From contig JACDOK010000002.1 in NCBI GenBank assembly GCA_017656185.1, positions 72,768-136,767 on the forward strand: a stretch of 64,000 nt of DNA. The letters are read 5' to 3'. Below, one piece after another: positions 13,422 to 56,799 of the stretch (its first letter is position 1; every line of letters begins with the position of its first letter). The translations under genes were made by a program, and so were the position numbers. This DNA comes from Peptococcaceae bacterium (GTDB lineage Bacteria > Bacillota > Desulfotomaculia > Desulfotomaculales > JACDOK01). Below the pieces are notes generated by a model. It saw only the letters and a program-made list of their open reading frames with translations, had not been told where the DNA came from and did not search any database.

Positions 13422-13485
13422 GTGGCCGTTCCATCAGCAAATATCACTATAACATAAACGGCAGGGCCTTGTCAATGATGAAACG

Positions 13486-13584
13486 CCCAGCACTCAGTAA
13501 ACAACGCAGAGTTCAAATGTCCATTCCAGTTGTCCAATGATACTTTAGTGCATCTATCCATCATTGTCAGCACTGAGTGCTGGG
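13486..13584. repeat. Dispersed inverted-repeat element (CCCAGCACTCAG … CTGAGTGCTGGG)
   Basis: Perfect 12-bp arms at 13486-13497 and 13573-13584; related copies at 29288, 29545 (right arm), 50304, 56569 and 26792. Confidence 0.85.
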
Positions 13585-13588
13585 CTTT

Positions 13589-13621
13589 GATACAGTGGGG
13601 ACACAGTGGTGATACGGTAGG
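13589..13621 (+). repeat. 11-nt tandem array GATACRGTGGT x3
   Basis: GATACAGTGGG GACACAGTGGT GATACGGTAGG. Confidence 0.85.
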
Positions 13622-13674
13622 ATTGCCGGGCATTCCTTACGGGTCCGGGAGGGTTACAAACCCTCCCCTACATT

Positions 13675-13720
13675 CTGTTTACTGTTTACTGTTTACTGTT
13701 TACTGCTCACTGATTACTGA
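13675..13720 (-). repeat. Heptameric array (AGTAAAC)n overlapping the hdrA stop
   Basis: Minus strand CAGTAATCAGTGAGCAGTAAACAGTAAACAGTAAACAGTAAACAG. Confidence 0.85.
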
Positions 13721-16700
13721 GTGCCTCCTCGACCATGGCCAGGAGCTGCTCATCCTCGAAACCGTTCTGGCGGCAAGCACCGCTGGGACAGGTAGCCGCA
13801 CACGTCCCACAGCCCCGGCATACCACTTCCTGTACCTGCGCCGTTCCGCGTTCGGGGTCAATGGTTATCGCCTCGTAGGGACACACCGCAGCACACAGAC
13901 CGCAGCCCGAACACAGGGCGGGATCTACCACGGAACTGGTCCCCACACTTTCAAGCCGCTGCTTGCTCAACATCGTGGCCGCGCGCATGCCGGCGGCCCC
14001 GGCCTGTGCCAGTGATTCGCTCAGCATTTTGGGAGCGTGCGCCAGGCCGCAAAGGTAGACCCCATCACTTGCAGAGTCGACCGGGCGCAGTTTCATATGC
14101 GCCTCGGCAAAAAAGCCATCGGGATTAAGTGGGGTCTTGAACAAGCGGCTTAGTTTTTGATTGTCCCGGCGTGGAACGATGGCGGCACTCAAACCAAGAA
14201 TGTCGGCTCTAATGGTCAGTTCCTCATTAAGCACAGGATCGATGACCGTAACGGCAACTTTGTTCCCCTCGGCCCTGACCGCCGGTTTCTTGTCAGGCCG
14301 GTACCGGATAAACACCACACCCTGCTCGCGTGCCCGCCGGTAATACTGTTCCCGCAGGCCGTAAGTCATCATATCCCGGTACAGGATAAAGATATTGACC
14401 CTTGGATTCAGGCGCTTGATACGCAGGGCGTTTTTAACGGCATGGGAACAGCACAGGCGGCTGCAGTAAGGCCGTTCATCGTTACGCGACCCCACACACT
14501 GAATCATAACCACCGTATCAATACCGTGCAGTTTCCCGAGGTCCAGTTTCTGCTCCAGTTCGGTTTGGGTCATAACCGCGGAATGTGCTCCGTACAGGTA
14601 CTCCCGGGGGTGGGACTCCTCCGCCCCGGAGGCCAGGATAACCACTCCGTGATGGAGTTCTCTTTCCTCATCACCGACGCGGATTCTCGTCCGGTAATTA
14701 CCCGCATACCCCTCCACCGCCAGGATACTGCTCCCGGTCAGCACTTCAATCAAAGGATGATAACTCACCCTGTCAACCATCAGGCGCAGAAAAGCCTGTG
14801 CATCGGAGCCGTCAAGAGTATGAAACAGGTGCCGCAGGTTTCCGCCCAAATAGGGTTCCTGTTCCACGAGAAAAACGCGGAAGCCCTGGTCGGCCACTGT
14901 CAATGCCGCCGTCATTCCTGCCGCTCCACCGCCCACAACCAGGGCTTGCGGAACGATTTGCAAAGAGACGGTGGTTACCGGCTTCAGCAGCCGCACTTTG
15001 GCCACCGCCATCCGTACCAGATCCTTGGCCTTGACCGTGGCTTCTTCCGGAACATGCTGGTGTACCCAGGCTACGTGTTCCCGGATATTGACCTGTTCAT
15101 AAAGATAAGGATTAAGACCTGCTTCCCGCAACCCGGACTGGAAAAGGGGGGCATGCGTGCGCGGTGTACAGGAAGCAACTACCACACGGTTGAGATTGTA
15201 CTCTCTGATACACTCCACGATCCGGTTAATACTGTCCTGAGAGCAGGCAAACATGAACTCTTCCGTATATACCACGCCATGCAGTTCCCGCGCATAGCGC
15301 ACTAACCCGGGTACATCTACTACCGACCCGATATTGGTACCGCAGTGGCATACAAAGACCCCTATACGGGGTTCTTGGCGGTCTACATCCCTTTCAGGGG
15401 GATAAGTCTTTACAGAAGCAAGGCTGCCCCGGGCCGGGTGCAGTAAACGGGCGATCTCACCGGCAGCAGCTCCGGCTTCCACTACAACCTCGGGGATGTC
15501 CCGGGGACCGTTGAGAGCACCCGCCGTAAAAATTCCCGGGCGGGAGGTCAGAGTCGGATAAAGCTCCCACGTGTCACAGAAGCCGTAGTTATTAAGCTGT
15601 ATACCTGTCACCTTCGTTAAGTCATACACGTCTGGGGACGGCCGCATCCCCACCGATAACACAACCAGATCGAAATCTTCCTCCCGGAAGCCTCCATCCG
15701 GTAAACGATACCTGATGCGCAGGTTTTTACTGCGCTGTAGCTCCTGCACGGCAGAAATCATACACCGCACGTACCGCACGCCGTAGCGATCACGGGCACG
15801 CTGGTAATAACGCTCGTAATCTTTGCCGAAAACACGTATATCCATGCAAAACAACGCTACATCAAGGTCGGGAAGATGTTCCTTAGCCAGCATGGCCTGC
15901 TTGGTTGCATACATACAGCAAACGGACGAGCAGTACTCCTGACCGTGGGCCAGATCCCGGGACCCGGCACACTGAATGAAGGCTATTTTGCGCGGCTCTT
16001 TACCGTCCGAAGGGCGCAAGATGCTACCCCCGTGCGGCCCCGATGCGCTCAGAAGCCGTTCAAACTGAATACCGGTGATAACGTTGGGGTAGAGACCGTA
16101 GCCCCACTCCTCGCGCGTCCCTGCTTCTATAAGTTCATAACCAGTACTTAAAATTAGGGCCCCTACCCTGATAATCTTCTCTTCATCCCACATAAAGGGA
16201 TTAATGGCATCCGACGGGCAGGCTTCCTGGCACTTAACACATTCCGGGCACTTATCCATATCAATTACGTAAGCACCGGGGAAAGCCTGGGCGTACGGGC
16301 GGTAAATGGCTTTACGCAAGCTCATACCCGCATTGAATTGATCTTTAACTTCGATAGGGCAGACCGTGGCGCAATCTCCACAGCCGATACATTTATCCAG
16401 TTTTACGTAACGCGCCCGCAGTCTCAGGCGCACCTCGAAATTCCCCGGTTCGCCCCTCAGTCCTTTGATTTCGGCACAGGTAAGTACGGTAATATTGGGA
16501 TGCCGCCCGCACTCTACCAGCCGCGGTGATAAAGTACACATAGAGCAGTCGTTGGTAGGAAACGTTTTATCCAGCTGCGCCATCCTGCCCCCAATGGCGG
16601 GCTGTTTTTCAACCAGATAGACTTTAAAACCCGCTTCCGCCAAATCCAAAGCTGACTGGATACCGCCAACCCCTCCGCCGACCGCCATGACTGACCCGTT

Positions 16701-16766
16701 TACTACTCCCTTGTTATGCGGGTGCAACGACACGTCAACAACCTCCCCTTTAGTATCAATACGCAA
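13707..16766 (-). CDS. hdrA: Heterodisulfide reductase subunit A-like protein (long, two FAD-binding halves plus ferredoxin domains)
   Basis: VGGGVGGIQSALDLAEAGFKVYLVEK, CIGCGDCATVCP, RIGVFVCHCGTNIG, second VVGGGAAGMTAALTVADQGF, C-terminal CSGCGLCAAVCP/CRGCGTCAATCPSGA. Confidence 0.93.
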   Translation of the reverse strand: MRIDTKGEVVDVSLHPHNKGVVNGSVMAVGGGVGGIQSALDLAEAGFKVYLVEKQPAIGGRMAQLDKTFPTNDCSMCTLSPRLVECGRHPNITVLTCAEIKGLRGEPGNFEVRLRLRARYVKLDKCIGCGDCATVCPIEVKDQFNAGMSLRKAIYRPYAQAFPGAYVIDMDKCPECVKCQEACPSDAINPFMWDEEKIIRVGALILSTGYELIEAGTREEWGYGLYPNVITGIQFERLLSASGPHGGSILRPSDGKEPRKIAFIQCAGSRDLAHGQEYCSSVCCMYATKQAMLAKEHLPDLDVALFCMDIRVFGKDYERYYQRARDRYGVRYVRCMISAVQELQRSKNLRIRYRLPDGGFREEDFDLVVLSVGMRPSPDVYDLTKVTGIQLNNYGFCDTWELYPTLTSRPGIFTAGALNGPRDIPEVVVEAGAAAGEIARLLHPARGSLASVKTYPPERDVDRQEPRIGVFVCHCGTNIGSVVDVPGLVRYARELHGVVYTEEFMFACSQDSINRIVECIREYNLNRVVVASCTPRTHAPLFQSGLREAGLNPYLYEQVNIREHVAWVHQHVPEEATVKAKDLVRMAVAKVRLLKPVTTVSLQIVPQALVVGGGAAGMTAALTVADQGFRVFLVEQEPYLGGNLRHLFHTLDGSDAQAFLRLMVDRVSYHPLIEVLTGSSILAVEGYAGNYRTRIRVGDEERELHHGVVILASGAEESHPREYLYGAHSAVMTQTELEQKLDLGKLHGIDTVVMIQCVGSRNDERPYCSRLCCSHAVKNALRIKRLNPRVNIFILYRDMMTYGLREQYYRRAREQGVVFIRYRPDKKPAVRAEGNKVAVTVIDPVLNEELTIRADILGLSAAIVPRRDNQKLSRLFKTPLNPDGFFAEAHMKLRPVDSASDGVYLCGLAHAPKMLSESLAQAGAAGMRAATMLSKQRLESVGTSSVVDPALCSGCGLCAAVCPYEAITIDPERGTAQVQEVVCRGCGTCAATCPSGACRQNGFEDEQLLAMVEEALSNQ

Positions 16767-22576: not shown

Positions 22577-23983
22577 TTACCCCGCCGCAGATAAGAAAGC
22601 CTTATAGCCCTTATAAGCCATATAAAGGTCCACCTTGCTGGCCACCTCGAAGGGCGAGTGCATGCTTAAAAGGCCCGGCCCGCAGTCCAGCACGTCCATA
22701 CCGTACGATGCCAGCAGGTGCGCTACCGTTCCACCGCCGCCCTGGTCAACCTTACCCAGTTCCCCCGGCTGCCAGGCCACGCCCGCCTCGTTAAACAACC
22801 GCCGCACAAATGCCACAAACTCCGCGTGCGCGTCATTAGCCTCCAATTTCCCCTTGGAACCGGTATATTTGGTTAAAACCACACCGCATCCCAAACGGGC
22901 GGCGTTATTTTTATCCATTACGTCTTTATAGGTAGGGTCAAAAGCGGCATTGACATCGGCAGAAAGCGCCCTGGAATTGCCCAGCATGCGCCGTGCCGCC
23001 AACTCCGGAAGACGGTGATCCATTCTGGCTACCGCTTCTGCAACGAAGTTTTCCAAAAAACGTGATTTCATCCCCGTATTACCTTCCGAACCGATTTCCT
23101 CTTTATCGGCCAGCAGTACTATCACCGTGCGCCGCGGAACCGTGGTAATATCCATAAGTGACTTGAGAGCCGCAAATGCGCATATCCGGTCATCTTGCCC
23201 GTACCCCCCTACCATACTGCGATCCAAACCAACGTCACAGGCCGGATACGCGGGTACCAGCTCGATTTCAGCACTTACCAGGTCTTCCTCCACCAGGCCA
23301 TACGTTTGATAAAGATATTGCGCAATGGCTTTGCGCACCGGTTCCTTTTCTTGGTTTTCTTGAGAAGCTTCTGCCGAAGGGCGATTCCCGACCAGTATGT
23401 TCAGGTTCTCACCCGGAACAGCGTCGGCCAATTTTTTGTCCATCTGGTCCTTGGCAAGATGCGGTAGGAGATCGCTCACCGTGAATACCGGGTCCCCCGG
23501 TTGGTCGCCGATGCGCAGTTCCAGGCGGGTACCGTCCTGTTTGACCACAATACCGTGAATGGCCAGCGGAACGCTTAACCACTGGTATTTCTTTATGCCC
23601 CCGTAATAATGTGTTTTGAAAAGAGCCAGACCTTCTTCTTCATATAACGGCACCGGTTTCAAATCCAGGCGCGGTGAGTCAATGTGGGCCGCTACGATAT
23701 TGCCGCCCGACTCTAAGGCATCGCTGCCGATAATTGCCAGCACCATGGCTTTACCGCGATTTATCTCATAAACCTTGTCTCCCGGCCGGAGCCGTTCAAC
23801 CTGTCTAAGCGTGACAAAACCGTTCTGCTGGGCCAGTAATACTGCTTCCGCTATGGTTTCGCGTTCGGTCCTGGCCCGGTTCAGAAAAGCCTTGTACTCT
23901 TCTGCCAGTTCCCCTACCAGATTTTGTTCCCCGGGATCAAGCTTTGGCCATACATTTTTAACTGTGAAAGTTATATCTTGCAT
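22577..23983 (-). CDS. M18 family aminopeptidase
   Basis: NIVAAHIDSPRLDLKP, LLADKEEIGSEGNTGMKSRFLENF, SADVNAAFDPTYKDVMDKNNAARLG. Confidence 0.92.
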   Translation of the reverse strand: MQDITFTVKNVWPKLDPGEQNLVGELAEEYKAFLNRARTERETIAEAVLLAQQNGFVTLRQVERLRPGDKVYEINRGKAMVLAIIGSDALESGGNIVAAHIDSPRLDLKPVPLYEEEGLALFKTHYYGGIKKYQWLSVPLAIHGIVVKQDGTRLELRIGDQPGDPVFTVSDLLPHLAKDQMDKKLADAVPGENLNILVGNRPSAEASQENQEKEPVRKAIAQYLYQTYGLVEEDLVSAEIELVPAYPACDVGLDRSMVGGYGQDDRICAFAALKSLMDITTVPRRTVIVLLADKEEIGSEGNTGMKSRFLENFVAEAVARMDHRLPELAARRMLGNSRALSADVNAAFDPTYKDVMDKNNAARLGCGVVLTKYTGSKGKLEANDAHAEFVAFVRRLFNEAGVAWQPGELGKVDQGGGGTVAHLLASYGMDVLDCGPGLLSMHSPFEVASKVDLYMAYKGYKAFLSAAG

Positions 23984-24094
23984 TACAATATCCTCCTCAA
24001 CCTTCTGGTTGTGATTAGTAAATTCTAAAAAGATATATTATCCCTATGTGGGGAAAATTACAATATCATCCTCAACCTTCTGGTTGTGATTAGT
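23983..24094 (-). repeat. 37-nt direct repeat pair upstream of the M18 aminopeptidase, each with a CAACC-AGAA-GGTTG hairpin
   Basis: ttacaatatc(c/a)tcctcaaccttctggttgtgattagt at 23983-24019 and 24058-24094, one mismatch. Confidence 0.9.
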
Positions 24095-26791: not shown

Positions 26792-26846
26792 AGCGCCCGG
26801 CACTCAGCCGGGCTTGCATCCAAGGCTTAGCTGAGTGCCGGGCGCT
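26792..26846. repeat. 17-bp perfect inverted repeat, member of the GCACTCAG/CTGAGTGC family; likely acts as a bidirectional terminator
   Basis: AGCGCCCGGCACTCAGC (26792-26808) and GCTGAGTGCCGGGCGCT (26830-26846) between convergent genes. Confidence 0.85.
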
Positions 26847-28492: not shown

Positions 28493-28688
28493 CTCCTTTA
28501 CAGTTTGTTGGACAAACGATTTCCCTCAGGGTTAATTCTTCCAGAATGGTCATACATCCTTCTGCTGGCAGCTTTTTTCGACACTAAACCATAGCTTAAA
28601 TTCTATCAACGGTTTACCACTATTTACCAGAAGATAATGCCTGTATTTGCCGTTACCGTCGATCAATAATCGTTACCGTGCATGTTAA

Positions 28689-28704
28689 TGTTTCACGTGA
28701 AACA
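28689..28704. promoter_or_regulatory. parS centromere site
   Basis: TGTTTCACGTGAAACA, 16-bp palindrome matching the Firmicute parS consensus. Confidence 0.92.
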
Positions 28705-29287
28705 TTAATACAATAGAATACACGCTAACCCAGTGAATAATAAACAGTTTTTCACACCGGTTTTACCGGAACCACGAAGGATAAAAACGTGACGGCTTTG
28801 GTCTAGTCACACTCAGCGACCGGATGAACAGATTACAAATAGATTTTATAATGTAGGTTGGGCGGTATTCCTCTGGGGTTTTGATTTTTGACAGGATCAA
28901 CAGGACAAACAGGATATAATTGATACAATTCTTAAAGTTATATTTAGGATTCTTACTATCGCGGAAATTAACAGGGTTCATAGAAAGAAATTATTTTCTT
29001 GATTTATTATTCTGTATTTATTATTCTGTTAATCCTGTCTGATTTAAGACCCCGAACAAATACCCAAGTTTAATGATTTAATCCTAGGGTATCTTGTTAA
29101 TTCTGTCTGAATTGGTGGTCCGCAACCGGTTACTCATTACGTTCCGGAAAGCTGCGGCCCATCCGTTTTTCTTAATTTAGCGGACCGTTTTTATCCTGAG
29201 TATTGTCGCTAGAACTGGCATTTTCGAGGTAGTTTCTTATACCGATTTATCGGCACCACGAGGGATGAAAATGAATGTACACGTGCA

Positions 29288-29385
29288 CCCAGCACTCAGT
29301 GAACAATAGAGAACTTAAATATTCTTTTTACTTTCCTCGTAACTATTTGTGCCCCTATGCATCATTATCAGCCCTGAGTGCTGGG
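29288..29385. repeat. Dispersed inverted-repeat element (CCCAGCACTCAG … CTGAGTGCTGGG), copy 2
   Basis: 12-bp arms at 29288-29299 and 29374-29385; 74-nt internal segment resembles the 75-nt interior of the 13486 copy. Confidence 0.85.
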
Positions 29386-29444
29386 TAGCTGCGGAACGTG
29401 AGCGCGAGGGAACCCCCGTAGACGCCTGAAGAGTGTATCTTTTG

Positions 29445-29479
29445 ACTAGAAAGTTGCCATAAACTGGCAACTTTCTAGT
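29445..29479. repeat. 15-bp perfect inverted repeat, 5-nt loop
   Basis: ACTAGAAAGTTGCCA-TAAAC-TGGCAACTTTCTAGT. Confidence 0.9.
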
Positions 29480-29544
29480 AGTTTAGATGTTCGCTCCAGT
29501 TATCCGGCGGTACTTCAATGCTCTTATCTATCCAATTATCAGCA

Positions 29545-29604
29545 CTGAGTGCCGGGCTGTGATACGGTGGTGACACAGCGGTGATACAGTAGTAATACGG
29601 TAGG
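29545..29604 (+). repeat. CTGAGTGCCGGG arm followed by 11-nt array x4
   Basis: GATACGGTGGT GACACAGCGGT GATACAGTAGT AATACGGTAGG. Confidence 0.85.
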
Positions 29605-29821
29605 AGTTTTCAGGTATTCCTTCTGGGTTCTGTATTTCAGATCTCAAAGGAATACACCGATTCTATATTCCGGAATCCTGTTTAATCCTGTCCATCCGCT
29701 CTCCTCAAATAATCGGGCTCATCACCCGTTTTTTCTTTCCTCATAACCACTAAATGACAGTATATTCTCCTTCCTAAGAACGCAAATTAGGGCTTAGACT
29801 ACAGCAAAGGCGGCGGTATTG

Positions 29822-30335: not shown

Positions 30336-30362
30336 CCAGGTAATTTAATACGCCAGACAGAT

Positions 30363-30378
30363 TGTTTCACGTGAAACA
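30363..30378. promoter_or_regulatory. parS centromere site
   Basis: TGTTTCACGTGAAACA. Confidence 0.93.
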
Positions 30379-30540: not shown

Positions 30541-30562
30541 CATTGCTTTTTAACTATGGCAA

Positions 30563-30578
30563 TGTTTCACGTGAAACA
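30563..30578. promoter_or_regulatory. parS centromere site immediately downstream of parB
   Basis: TGTTTCACGTGAAACA. Confidence 0.94.
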
Positions 30579-30581
30579 ATC

Positions 30582-31436
30582 TCAGCGATTTACATTTCTT
30601 AACGCTGCAATCAAACCTTTCAATTCTTCCTCACTTTGAAAGCTGATCTCGATTTTCCCCTTCTTAACGCTGCCTTTGATTGCCACGCGGGTCTTGAGCG
30701 CCTCGGCGATATCTTCAGCCATTTCTTTCAACACAGGGTCCTCACGGCGCCGTTTCCTCCTAGGTTTAGCCGTATCCGTTGCCTTTTCCTCCTGTATCAT
30801 CGTTTCTACCGCACGTACCGACAGCGACCCCTCAACCACTTTCTTTGCCAGCGCGACCTGCTTTTTGGGCTCCAAACCAACTAGGGCCCGGGCATGTCCC
30901 GCAGACAATTCACCTTTGTTAACCATCTCCTGAACTTCCGGTGGCAACTTTAATAACCGCAGCAGGTTAGTGATAGTGGTACGCTTTTTGCCGACCCGCC
31001 GGGCAACCTCCTCTTGCGTAAGTTCAAACTCCTCAATCAATTTCCGGTAAGCCTCGGCCTCCTCCAGGGGAGACAAGTTTTCACGCTGGATATTCTCAAT
31101 CAGGATACCGGCGGCGGCCTTTAAGTCGTCCATTTCACGTACAATAGCCGGAATATACTTCTTACCCAGTTTCTTATAAGCACGCCACCGCCGTTCACCG
31201 GAAATAAGTTCAAAACCTTCCTCGGTCGCACGTACCACTACGGGCTGAACCAGGCCGTGCTCCTCAATCGAAGCAGCCAGCTCGTCCAATTTTTCGGGAT
31301 CAAACACCTTGCGGGCCTGGCGCGCGTTCGGGACAATCTCGTCAACGGCAATTTCACGCAGGCCTTCTTTAACATCATCGCTTAAAGGGAGCAGGGCATC
31401 AAGACCGCGTCCCAATCTTTTACTGATAGACTTACC
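30582..31436 (-). CDS. parB: Chromosome partitioning protein ParB (Spo0J)
   Basis: KRLGRGLDALLP, LISGERRWRAYKKLGKKYIPAIVRE, NIQRENLSPLEEAEAY. Start ATG at 31436 overlaps the parA stop. Confidence 0.96.
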   Translation of the reverse strand, partial: GKSISKRLGRGLDALLPLSDDVKEGLREIAVDEIVPNARQARKVFDPEKLDELAASIEEHGLVQPVVVRATEEGFELISGERRWRAYKKLGKKYIPAIVREMDDLKAAAGILIENIQRENLSPLEEAEAYRKLIEEFELTQEEVARRVGKKRTTITNLLRLLKLPPEVQEMVNKGELSAGHARALVGLEPKKQVALAKKVVEGSLSVRAVETMIQEEKATDTAKPRRKRRREDPVLKEMAEDIAEALKTRVAIKGSVKKGKIEISFQSEEELKGLIAALRNVNR

Positions 31437-32199
31437 CATTAGCGACCAGCTCACCTGCCAGTTCACGATAGACCTCGGCGCCCCGGCATTTCGGATCATA
31501 AATAACAATGGGCAATCCGTGGCTCGGCGCCTCGCTCAACCTGACATTGCGGGGGATAATGCTGCCATAAACCTTCGAACCAAAATGACGTTTAACCTCA
31601 TCAACAACCTGAATCGAAAGATTGGTGCGCCCATCAAACATTGTAAGCAGCACACCCTCAATCTCCAAACGCGGGTTTAACCGCCGCTGGACCAGATTGA
31701 TAGTGGCCATTAACTGGCCCAGACCTTCCAATGCATAATACTCGCACTGGATGGGAATCAGCACCGACCCGGCTGCACTGAGAGCATTGATCGTAAGTAA
31801 ACCTAGCGAAGGTGGGCAATCAATAAAAATAAAATCATACTCGTTTTTAACCTTACCCAAAGCACCCTTCAATACCAGCTCCCGGTCGGGTATACCCACC
31901 ATTTCTATTTCCGCGCCGGCCAACCTCATGGTAGCGGGAACCACATCAAGTCTTTTCACTGTTGTACAGGGTTTTATCACCGTTTTGATACTTTCCTGCC
32001 CGATTAAAACGTCATAAATACACCGGCGCAAAGATTCCCGGTCAAAGCCCAAACCGCTGGATGCGTTACCTTGCGGGTCAATATCCACCAGCAAAACCTT
32101 CTGCCCCGCATCTGCCAAACAAGCGGATAAATTAACCGCCGTTGTCGTCTTGGCAACCCCACCCTTTTGGTTCGTAATGGCAATAACCTTACCCATAAA
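31432..32199 (-). CDS. parA: Chromosome partitioning ATPase ParA (Soj)
   Basis: MGKVIAITNQKGGVAKTTTAVNLSACLADAGQKVLLVDIDPQGNASSG. Confidence 0.97.
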   Translation of the reverse strand, partial: FMGKVIAITNQKGGVAKTTTAVNLSACLADAGQKVLLVDIDPQGNASSGLGFDRESLRRCIYDVLIGQESIKTVIKPCTTVKRLDVVPATMRLAGAEIEMVGIPDRELVLKGALGKVKNEYDFIFIDCPPSLGLLTINALSAAGSVLIPIQCEYYALEGLGQLMATINLVQRRLNPRLEIEGVLLTMFDGRTNLSIQVVDEVKRHFGSKVYGSIIPRNVRLSEAPSHGLPIVIYDPKCRGAEVYRELAGELVANG

Positions 32200-50172: not shown

Positions 50173-50303
50173 ATCGGGATTGGTAATTGTGATTTAGGGC
50201 CTATTGGTTCTTATGGGCCCTTTTATTTTATTTGGCCCAATGGCGGCTCCATATTCCCGATGTCGGTGATATCTTGGATGCTATTGATGTTCAGCAGCGT
50301 TAT

Positions 50304-50348
50304 CCAGCACTCAGATAAGCACCAAATGCAAGCCAACCTGAGTGCTGG
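50304..50348. repeat. Dispersed inverted-repeat element, short-loop copy
   Basis: CCAGCACTCAG (50304-50314) / CTGAGTGCTGG (50338-50348). Confidence 0.85.
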
Positions 50349-50381
50349 AGGGCGAATGACAGCAAGCGGAGCAAATCTCTA

Positions 50382-55036: not shown

Positions 55037-56323
<1,287 letters not shown>

Positions 56324-56326
<3 letters not shown>

Positions 56327-56389
56327 AGATCCAGTAGAGACACGGTAGAAATTCGATAAAAATCCGGTAGAGATCCGGTAGAATATCCA
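56324..56389 (+). repeat. 11-nt tandem array x6 (TAGAGATCCGG)n beginning at the serS stop codon
   Basis: TAGAGATCCAG TAGAGACACGG TAGAAATTCGA TAAAAATCCGG TAGAGATCCGG TAGAATATCC. Confidence 0.9.
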
Positions 56390-56568
56390 ACATTTGCTTT
56401 TAGGTATTCCTTTAGGTCCGCGGGAGGGTTGCAAACCCTCCCCATATTTTATAATAAGTAATTTAGCAGGAATAGGGGCGGGTCTTGCCCCTGCCCGCGA
56501 CCAATGAGGATACCTAAGATCCCAATCGTATCACCACTGTGTCATCATGTGTCACAACCGTATCACAG

Positions 56569-56615
56569 CCCAGCACTCAGGTAAGCCCGGAAATGCACGC
56601 CCAACTGAGTGCTGG
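56569..56615. repeat. Dispersed inverted-repeat element, short-loop copy
   Basis: CCCAGCACTCAG (56569-56580) / CTGAGTGCTGG (56605-56615), preceded by minus-strand 11-mers. Confidence 0.87.
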
Positions 56616-56799
56616 ACGTATCACAGGCCCGCCAGGGCCGTATAGCAATTGTGTACTCCATCGTATATTCTATCGTGACGACAGGAATATGACCCGCCGT
56701 TAGCGAACCCGTATCAATGTTGTCTGATTTGCACAGTATGATATGCCCCAGTACTTCCGGAAACTTGGATAGGTTAATGGCATAGTAGAAGGATGTTGT

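Follow-up and report, generated by a model that had tools for sequence, protein, structure and literature searches.

The composite intergenic repeat that adjoins hdrA in this Peptococcaceae bacterium may well be an intergenic mosaic, formed as a non-autonomous hairpin element landed among other repeat families and in linker-hairpin arrays, a reading of the sequence that we hold with roughly even confidence. The surrounding composite is best read as BIME-like and not as one mobile unit, and the elements within it as non-autonomous with REPIN-like behaviour, rather than as established REPINs. Support for their mobility is comparative only, and no movement was observed. A literature search for the composite or its arms found no description of either.

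The window, i.e., the whole stretch of 64,000 nucleotides analysed, is G000:C2:72768-136767, where G000 is the host genome, a draft of 2.31 Mb (2.306 Mb) in 82 contigs that is 99.89% complete. We scanned 1.494 of the 2.306 Mb in full, a sample taken partly around known matches, and used simple ORF calls as host genes. The comparison set consisted of 112 other genomes of the order, all from families other than the host's. Because its closest named seryl-tRNA synthetases, those of Desulfofundulus and other Bacillota, have 71% identity, the host is probably a deep-branching relative of the Desulfotomaculum group. In Desulfofundulus thermobenzoicus, CCCGGCACTCAC(71)GTGAGTGCCGGG stands immediately 5' of serS (L130:3844-3938). 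The window is the region around the replication origin; its genes include ParB and GyrB, and its RNAs include a large SRP RNA and a T-box. Gene direction switches near window 38 kb in an origin-like manner, and parS-like sites (TGTTTCACGTGAAACA) occur at 28682-28704, 30356-30378, and 30556-30578, around parB (30582-31508, minus strand). Two 38-bp direct repeats, 97% identical and 75 bp apart (23982-24019 and 24057-24094), lie between ORFs and are possibly regulatory. The repeat modules of the window are listed below.

13485..13585, plus strand: long inverted-repeat element (LE, 101 bp); arms 13486-13497 and 13573-13584; interior-only HMM E 1.6e-14; single-stranded DNA hairpin fold z -5.0
13589..13621, plus strand: three imperfect 11-mers, GATACAGTGGG, GACACAGTGGT, and GATACGGTAGG
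13628..13668, plus strand: GGGCATTCC, then the GGTCCGGGAGGGTTACAAACCCTCCCC hairpin module
13675..13719, plus strand: heptad array of the TTTACTG type, reaching into the hdrA stop codon (13707-13709)
26796..26842, strand not assigned: short inverted-repeat element (SE, 47 bp)
29287..29386, plus strand: second long element, of the same family as that at 13485..13585; HMM E 3.1e-10
29480..29556, plus strand: 3' part of a long element; HMM E 5.6e-9, positions 13-76
29561..29604, plus strand: four 11-mers, GATACGGTGGT, GACACAGCGGT, GATACAGTAGT, and AATACGGTAGG
29613..29621, plus strand: GGTATTCCT module
50303..50349, strand not assigned: short element (SE)
56314..56383, plus strand: divergent 11-mer array, AGAGATCCGGT type, upstream of the GGTATTCC module
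56403..56443, plus strand: GGTATTCCTTTAGGTCCGCGGGAGGGTTGCAAACCCTCCCC module
56522..56558, minus strand: 11-mer array adjoining the short element at 56569..56616
56559..56568, plus strand: 10-bp linker or direct repeat CGTATCACAG, left copy
56569..56616, strand not assigned: short element (SE) with one outer base mismatched; folding also computed
56617..56626, plus strand: 10-bp linker or direct repeat CGTATCACAG, exact right copy, followed by the hairpin ggcccgccagggcc

When the sequence was re-read, the modules and coordinates at 13486-13720, 29545-29632, and 56403-56616 were found as the earlier note had described them, and the heptad array does end in the stop of hdrA, an ORF at 13707-16766 on the minus strand. 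The three 11-mers at 13589-13621 had been called perfect copies of GATACRGTGGT; none of the three is perfect. The modules at 56406-56615 had been taken to stand in inverse order; on the minus strand from 56616 to about 56470 they show the same order, i.e., short inverted-repeat element, 11-mers, AGGTATCC, and GC-rich hairpin. Facing this minus-strand composite head to head is a further GGTATTCC-hairpin pair (56403-56443). The long element at 29287..29386 sits within a larger segment duplicated at C32, and the left end of the truncated long element at 29480..29556 is replaced by another hairpin (29449-29481). The latter is perfect, CTAGAAAGTTGCC(N7)GGCAACTTTCTAG, and stands at the expected left end of the truncated element.

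To measure co-occurrence, module pairs at most 120 bp apart were counted in 1.494 Mb of the host and compared with random intergenic relocation. Arm-linker pairs numbered 74 (null mean 7.8, null maximum 16), GGYATTCC-hairpin pairs 17 (1.7 and 6), 11-mer-arm pairs 17 (4.5 and 11), and 11-mer-GGYATTCC pairs 10 (2.2 and 6). In 9 of the 10 11-mer-GGYATTCC pairs the two modules shared a strand, with GGYATTCC 3' of the 11-mers; likewise, 13 of the 17 GGYATTCC-hairpin pairs shared a strand, with the hairpin 3' of GGYATTCC. The modules therefore co-occurred more often, and in a more consistent order, than relocated intergenic positions, and the claim of a conserved, non-random order held, with fixed polarity: inverted-repeat element, 11-mers, GGYATTCC, GC-rich hairpin, and heptads (1.49 Mb of the host). 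A second composite copy, at G000:C4:62870-63068, aligned over the whole 187-base query with 74% identity, and a third on contig C13 (L089) had the same order, with a single arm, 11-mers, GGTATTCC, hairpin, and heptads. The earlier note had argued for a mobile or amplified composite unit. The non-random order, and the copying or shared descent of at least one whole composite, bear out part of this. The composite as a mobile unit is unsupported, because the majority of the modules are also found singly or combined otherwise, such as linker arrays flanking long elements, short elements replacing long ones, and GGYATTCC beside GACAGGATTAACAGGAT. Judged from sequence comparison, the inverted-repeat element is the part of the composite with independent evidence of dispersal, since RNase P RNA and riboswitches in other families of the order contain it with identical arms but with none of the other modules.

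The arms of this element are 12 bp long (CCCAGCACTCAG/CTGAGTGCTGGG). Arm CTGAGTGCYGGG, with at most one mismatch, had 179 matches genome-wide versus 3 for the reversed pattern used as a control. The 64 arm pairs in 1.49 Mb of the host comprised 37 long, 25 short, and 2 mini elements, with lengths near 98, 46, and 27 bp (LE, ca. 95–101 bp; SE, ca. 43–47 bp; mini, ca. 27 bp). Two short elements (L098:177-221 and L098:14644-14688) lie 14 kb apart in near-identical longer surroundings, which represents a local duplication. Since the arms had served to find the elements, their conservation was re-tested with an interior-only profile. This gave 41 matches, 31 of them full-length, with the left arm intact in 30 of 31 and the right arm in 29 of 31. 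Pairwise identity between long copies was 98% and 97% in the arms and 55% in the interior. As single-stranded DNA, long elements folded better than shuffles (z -1.9 to -7.1); RNA-type conservation of the long element was limited to consistent pairing in the arms, with no compensatory change. In an alignment of 28 copies, the 5' arm CCCAGCACTCAG was not a hairpin by itself, and no conserved GTAG/GTGG guide was present 5' of the arm.

We also looked for what could move the elements. An autonomous element with the same ends was not found, there being no arm pair 113–6000 bp apart in 1.49 of the 2.31 Mb of the host. A search for the Y1 transposase (RAYT, PF01797) gave no match in the 99.9%-complete host genome, with positive search controls, and none in G042, which has two long copies. 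PF01797 is present in some, not all, element-bearing relatives, and copy number does not track Y1 genes. A RAYT origin of the elements was rejected because the host is without PF01797 and only some of the element-bearing relatives have it. Viral contigs contained no match to the element.

One type of array in the host alternates a 10-bp linker, CGWATSWCAG, with varied short hairpins, and some host elements occupy the hairpin position of such arrays. The exact linker had 93 matches in 1.494 Mb of the host versus 6 in the control. Perfect stems of 4 bp or more were present in 34 of 53 spacers, compared with 1.3 in shuffles (maximum 6), and 14 further spacers fit a second form, a tandem G.A mismatch hairpin such as CGAGCGAAGTGAG. 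Loops, tallied by hand, were GNA in 13 of 19 triloops and GNNA in 10 of 15 tetraloops, and 8 of those 10 were not GNRA. In DNA, loops of the types d(cGNAg) and d(cGNNAg) have unusual stability, whereas the stable set in RNA is GNRA. The loop preference would therefore favour DNA as the folded form. Linkers stood on both sides of 9 of the 64 elements, all nine direct and none inverted (chance 0.0095 per side), and on neither side of 44. Simple flank matching for a target duplication gave an excess at even lengths only, which was traced to the linker. A CRISPR array was rejected, the spacers being hairpins of 10–19 nt and the repeat only 10 bp. Matches to the linker-hairpin pattern numbered 36 in the host versus 0–3 in each of the 112 order genomes, about the control level and with no evident hairpins; a class-level search yielded the same set as the order-level search. 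Of 23 multi-linker clusters, 20 lay on the G-rich strand. Since genes share this bias (732 of 921), replication and transcription are inseparable as its source for linker clusters.

The host RNase P RNA (L265:16921-17350 in G000:C11, minus strand) carries a 97-nt version of the element in P12, with hairpin ends CCCAGCACTCAA/TTGAGTGCTGGG. The interior of this hairpin includes TTTTTCACGTGAAAG, a near-match to the parS site. Rfam RNAs near host arms were absent from the 94 kb scanned, the P12 element having been found separately. In genus g8 (family f8), the element lies within P12 in five genomes and within a peripheral stem of cobalamin riboswitches in two, and in G037 (family f17) it lies within a c-di-AMP riboswitch (riboswitch loci L280, L296, and L287). 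In all three kinds of RNA the elements are stem extensions. The 28-nt versions directly abut the start of a group II intron match (L116 and L286), and group II introns may spread these versions. P12 is the one comparable orthologous site, and its occupancy is variable between genomes. Stems with these arms or close variants were present in 8 of the 30 P12 read, in families f1, f6, f7, f8, and f17; in other members of f6, f7, f8, and f17 the P12 stem is short, is made of heptad-like repeats, or is replaced by a different hairpin, and G007 (f8) has a 31-nt hairpin with related ends in the element's place. P12 forms of several families look distantly related, with z up to 7.2, a value inflated by their palindromic make-up. 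Heptad-like P12 stems of the TTGGAGG and GGAAGTG types in other order members resemble the intergenic heptads (L335, L347, L353, L328, and L332). The 16S insertions of Desulfotomaculum, and intervening sequences, were rejected as a source, with no rRNA match near arms in the scanned loci and no literature link.

The exact long pattern was found in 10 of 113 genomes of the order (the host, five of f17, and four of f8) and in 2 of 398 genomes of a phylum sample (the host and one outside the order). Interiors are related within the host (z 5–15) and among some f17 copies (z 8.6). Between families they are unrelated (z about 0–2.6), yet the length is constant at 95–104 bp. Homology between the interiors of a cobalamin-riboswitch copy and host copies, suspected by eye, was rejected (z about 0–1). 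By-eye reading of G061 and G062 suggests that these arms enclose interiors of two types there.

Several other explanations must be weighed against the mosaic reading. The near-invariance of the arms beside interiors diverged to 55% identity would be expected if the host maintained binding or structural sites, with a nucleoid protein, gyrase, or RNA-binding protein using the inverted arm pair, as proposed for some BIMEs; unselected inserted copies should decay at both, and the arms are kept in the P12 stem of five families too. We nevertheless consider such host-maintained sites unlikely, given the patchy distribution of the element in the order and the phylum sample, site classes (co-directional, convergent, and divergent) that differ little from those of all intergenic regions, and the location of the few long g8 copies examined in RNA genes, not in intergenic DNA. 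A role at gene ends as transcription terminators or mRNA stabilisers is very improbable. The elements do form hairpins and are slightly in excess in convergent regions (11 arms observed vs 7.7 expected for length), but strand bias relative to neighbouring co-directional genes was absent for arms, 11-mers, and GGYATTCC (arms 32 to 34 by strand), a terminator role is impossible for the copies within RNase P RNA and in the aptamers of riboswitches, and the arms have no T-run 3' of them.

A classical MITE of a DDE transposon, with a 10-bp target duplication at CGWATSWCAG and a transposase that has been lost or lies in the unsampled part of the genome, would account for the terminal inverted repeats, small size, copy number, and exact 10-bp direct repeats around elements at window 56559/56617, L078:6840, and L080:12279. 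However, the linker also separates hairpins of 11–16 nt that such a transposase would not move, most copies are without duplication, and interiors wholly different between families at constant length are unusual for deletion derivatives; we judge this origin less likely than host-maintained sites. Less likely again is a derivation of the dispersed hairpins from the P12 hairpin of RNase P RNA, as SINEs derive from 7SL or tRNA. P12 carries the arms in five families, and f6 and f7 members have them nowhere else; the genomes with dispersed long copies and a parsed P12 (G000, G037, G042, G051, and G022, as well as G084 and G085) have the arms in P12. Against this, the host P12 interior is unrelated to the host dispersed copies (z at most 2.3), so an old insertion into P12 is as likely as P12 being the source, and P12 looks like a landing place because other repeats (heptad-like arrays) occupy it in other genomes.

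Under the mosaic reading, conservation of the arms would reflect their recognition by a trans-acting factor, on which copying depends. Copying would proceed via single-stranded DNA, and replication forks are the probable place for this and for the folding of the element. Copies would insert into or beside hairpins, or only such copies would survive; the reason would be that a hairpin within a stem tip does little harm. The mobilising enzyme would not be a recognisable Y1 transposase of the host genome. A bolder version is possible, although we doubt it: a hairpin lineage of this order whose 12-bp ends have persisted through divergence at the level of the order as the interior was replaced, and that targets stem tips (RNase P P12, riboswitches, and linker-hairpin arrays), moving as single-stranded DNA by a non-Y1 enzyme with the linker-hairpin arrays as a landing platform.

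Small hairpin elements such as REPINs are usually attributed to a RAYT transposase. The host has one of the larger element loads in the order, yet no recognisable Y1 enzyme; therefore, either a different machine moves the elements or the host keeps them. Their position at stem tips of an essential ribozyme and of riboswitches shows how working RNAs can incorporate a dispersed repeat, and the linker-hairpin arrays, with loop types reported to be very stable in DNA, provide a testable case for a single-stranded DNA intermediate. REPINs have two conserved inverted ends and are dispersed outside genes; the spacer between the ends is less conserved, but its length and its capacity to form a hairpin are important (PMC3116915). 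The host element similarly combines conserved inverted ends (97–98%) with a variable interior (55%) and a length of 95–104 bp. It differs in that the host has neither a Y1 transposase nor a GTAG guide beside a self-complementary REP, and in that its arms are common to families of an order with unrelated spacers and occur inside RNase P RNA and riboswitches. In BIMEs, short repeat families stand in preferred order between genes and palindromic units are clustered (PMC6006769). The host composite likewise combines several repeat families non-randomly between genes, but its modules are 11-mers, the GGYATTCC-hairpin, heptads, and linker-hairpin arrays, not REPs with a RAYT; REP-type units, in alternating orientation or otherwise, are absent from the composite, and the linkers that flank elements are always direct.

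MITEs such as Correia elements are short, have terminal inverted repeats and many copies, and carry no gene, and Rickettsia palindromic elements (RPEs) are palindromes of 100–150 bp whose entry into genes is tolerated in hairpin form (PMC10969869). The host element resembles MITEs in its terminal inverted repeats, size under about 600 bp, many copies, and lack of a gene. It differs from them in that no matching transposon was found in 1.49 Mb of the host, a possible target duplication is seen at some copies only, and the interior is variable with fixed ends. RPEs are best known within protein genes, whereas the copies in the host's order lie between genes and in RNA genes. The STRR heptamer repeats in cyanobacterial rnpB are intergenic repeats that also occur inside RNase P RNA. 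The element described here is likewise both intergenic and inside RNase P RNA, although it is a single inverted-repeat element and STRRs are tandem heptamers; heptad-like P12 arms do occur in other members of the host's order.
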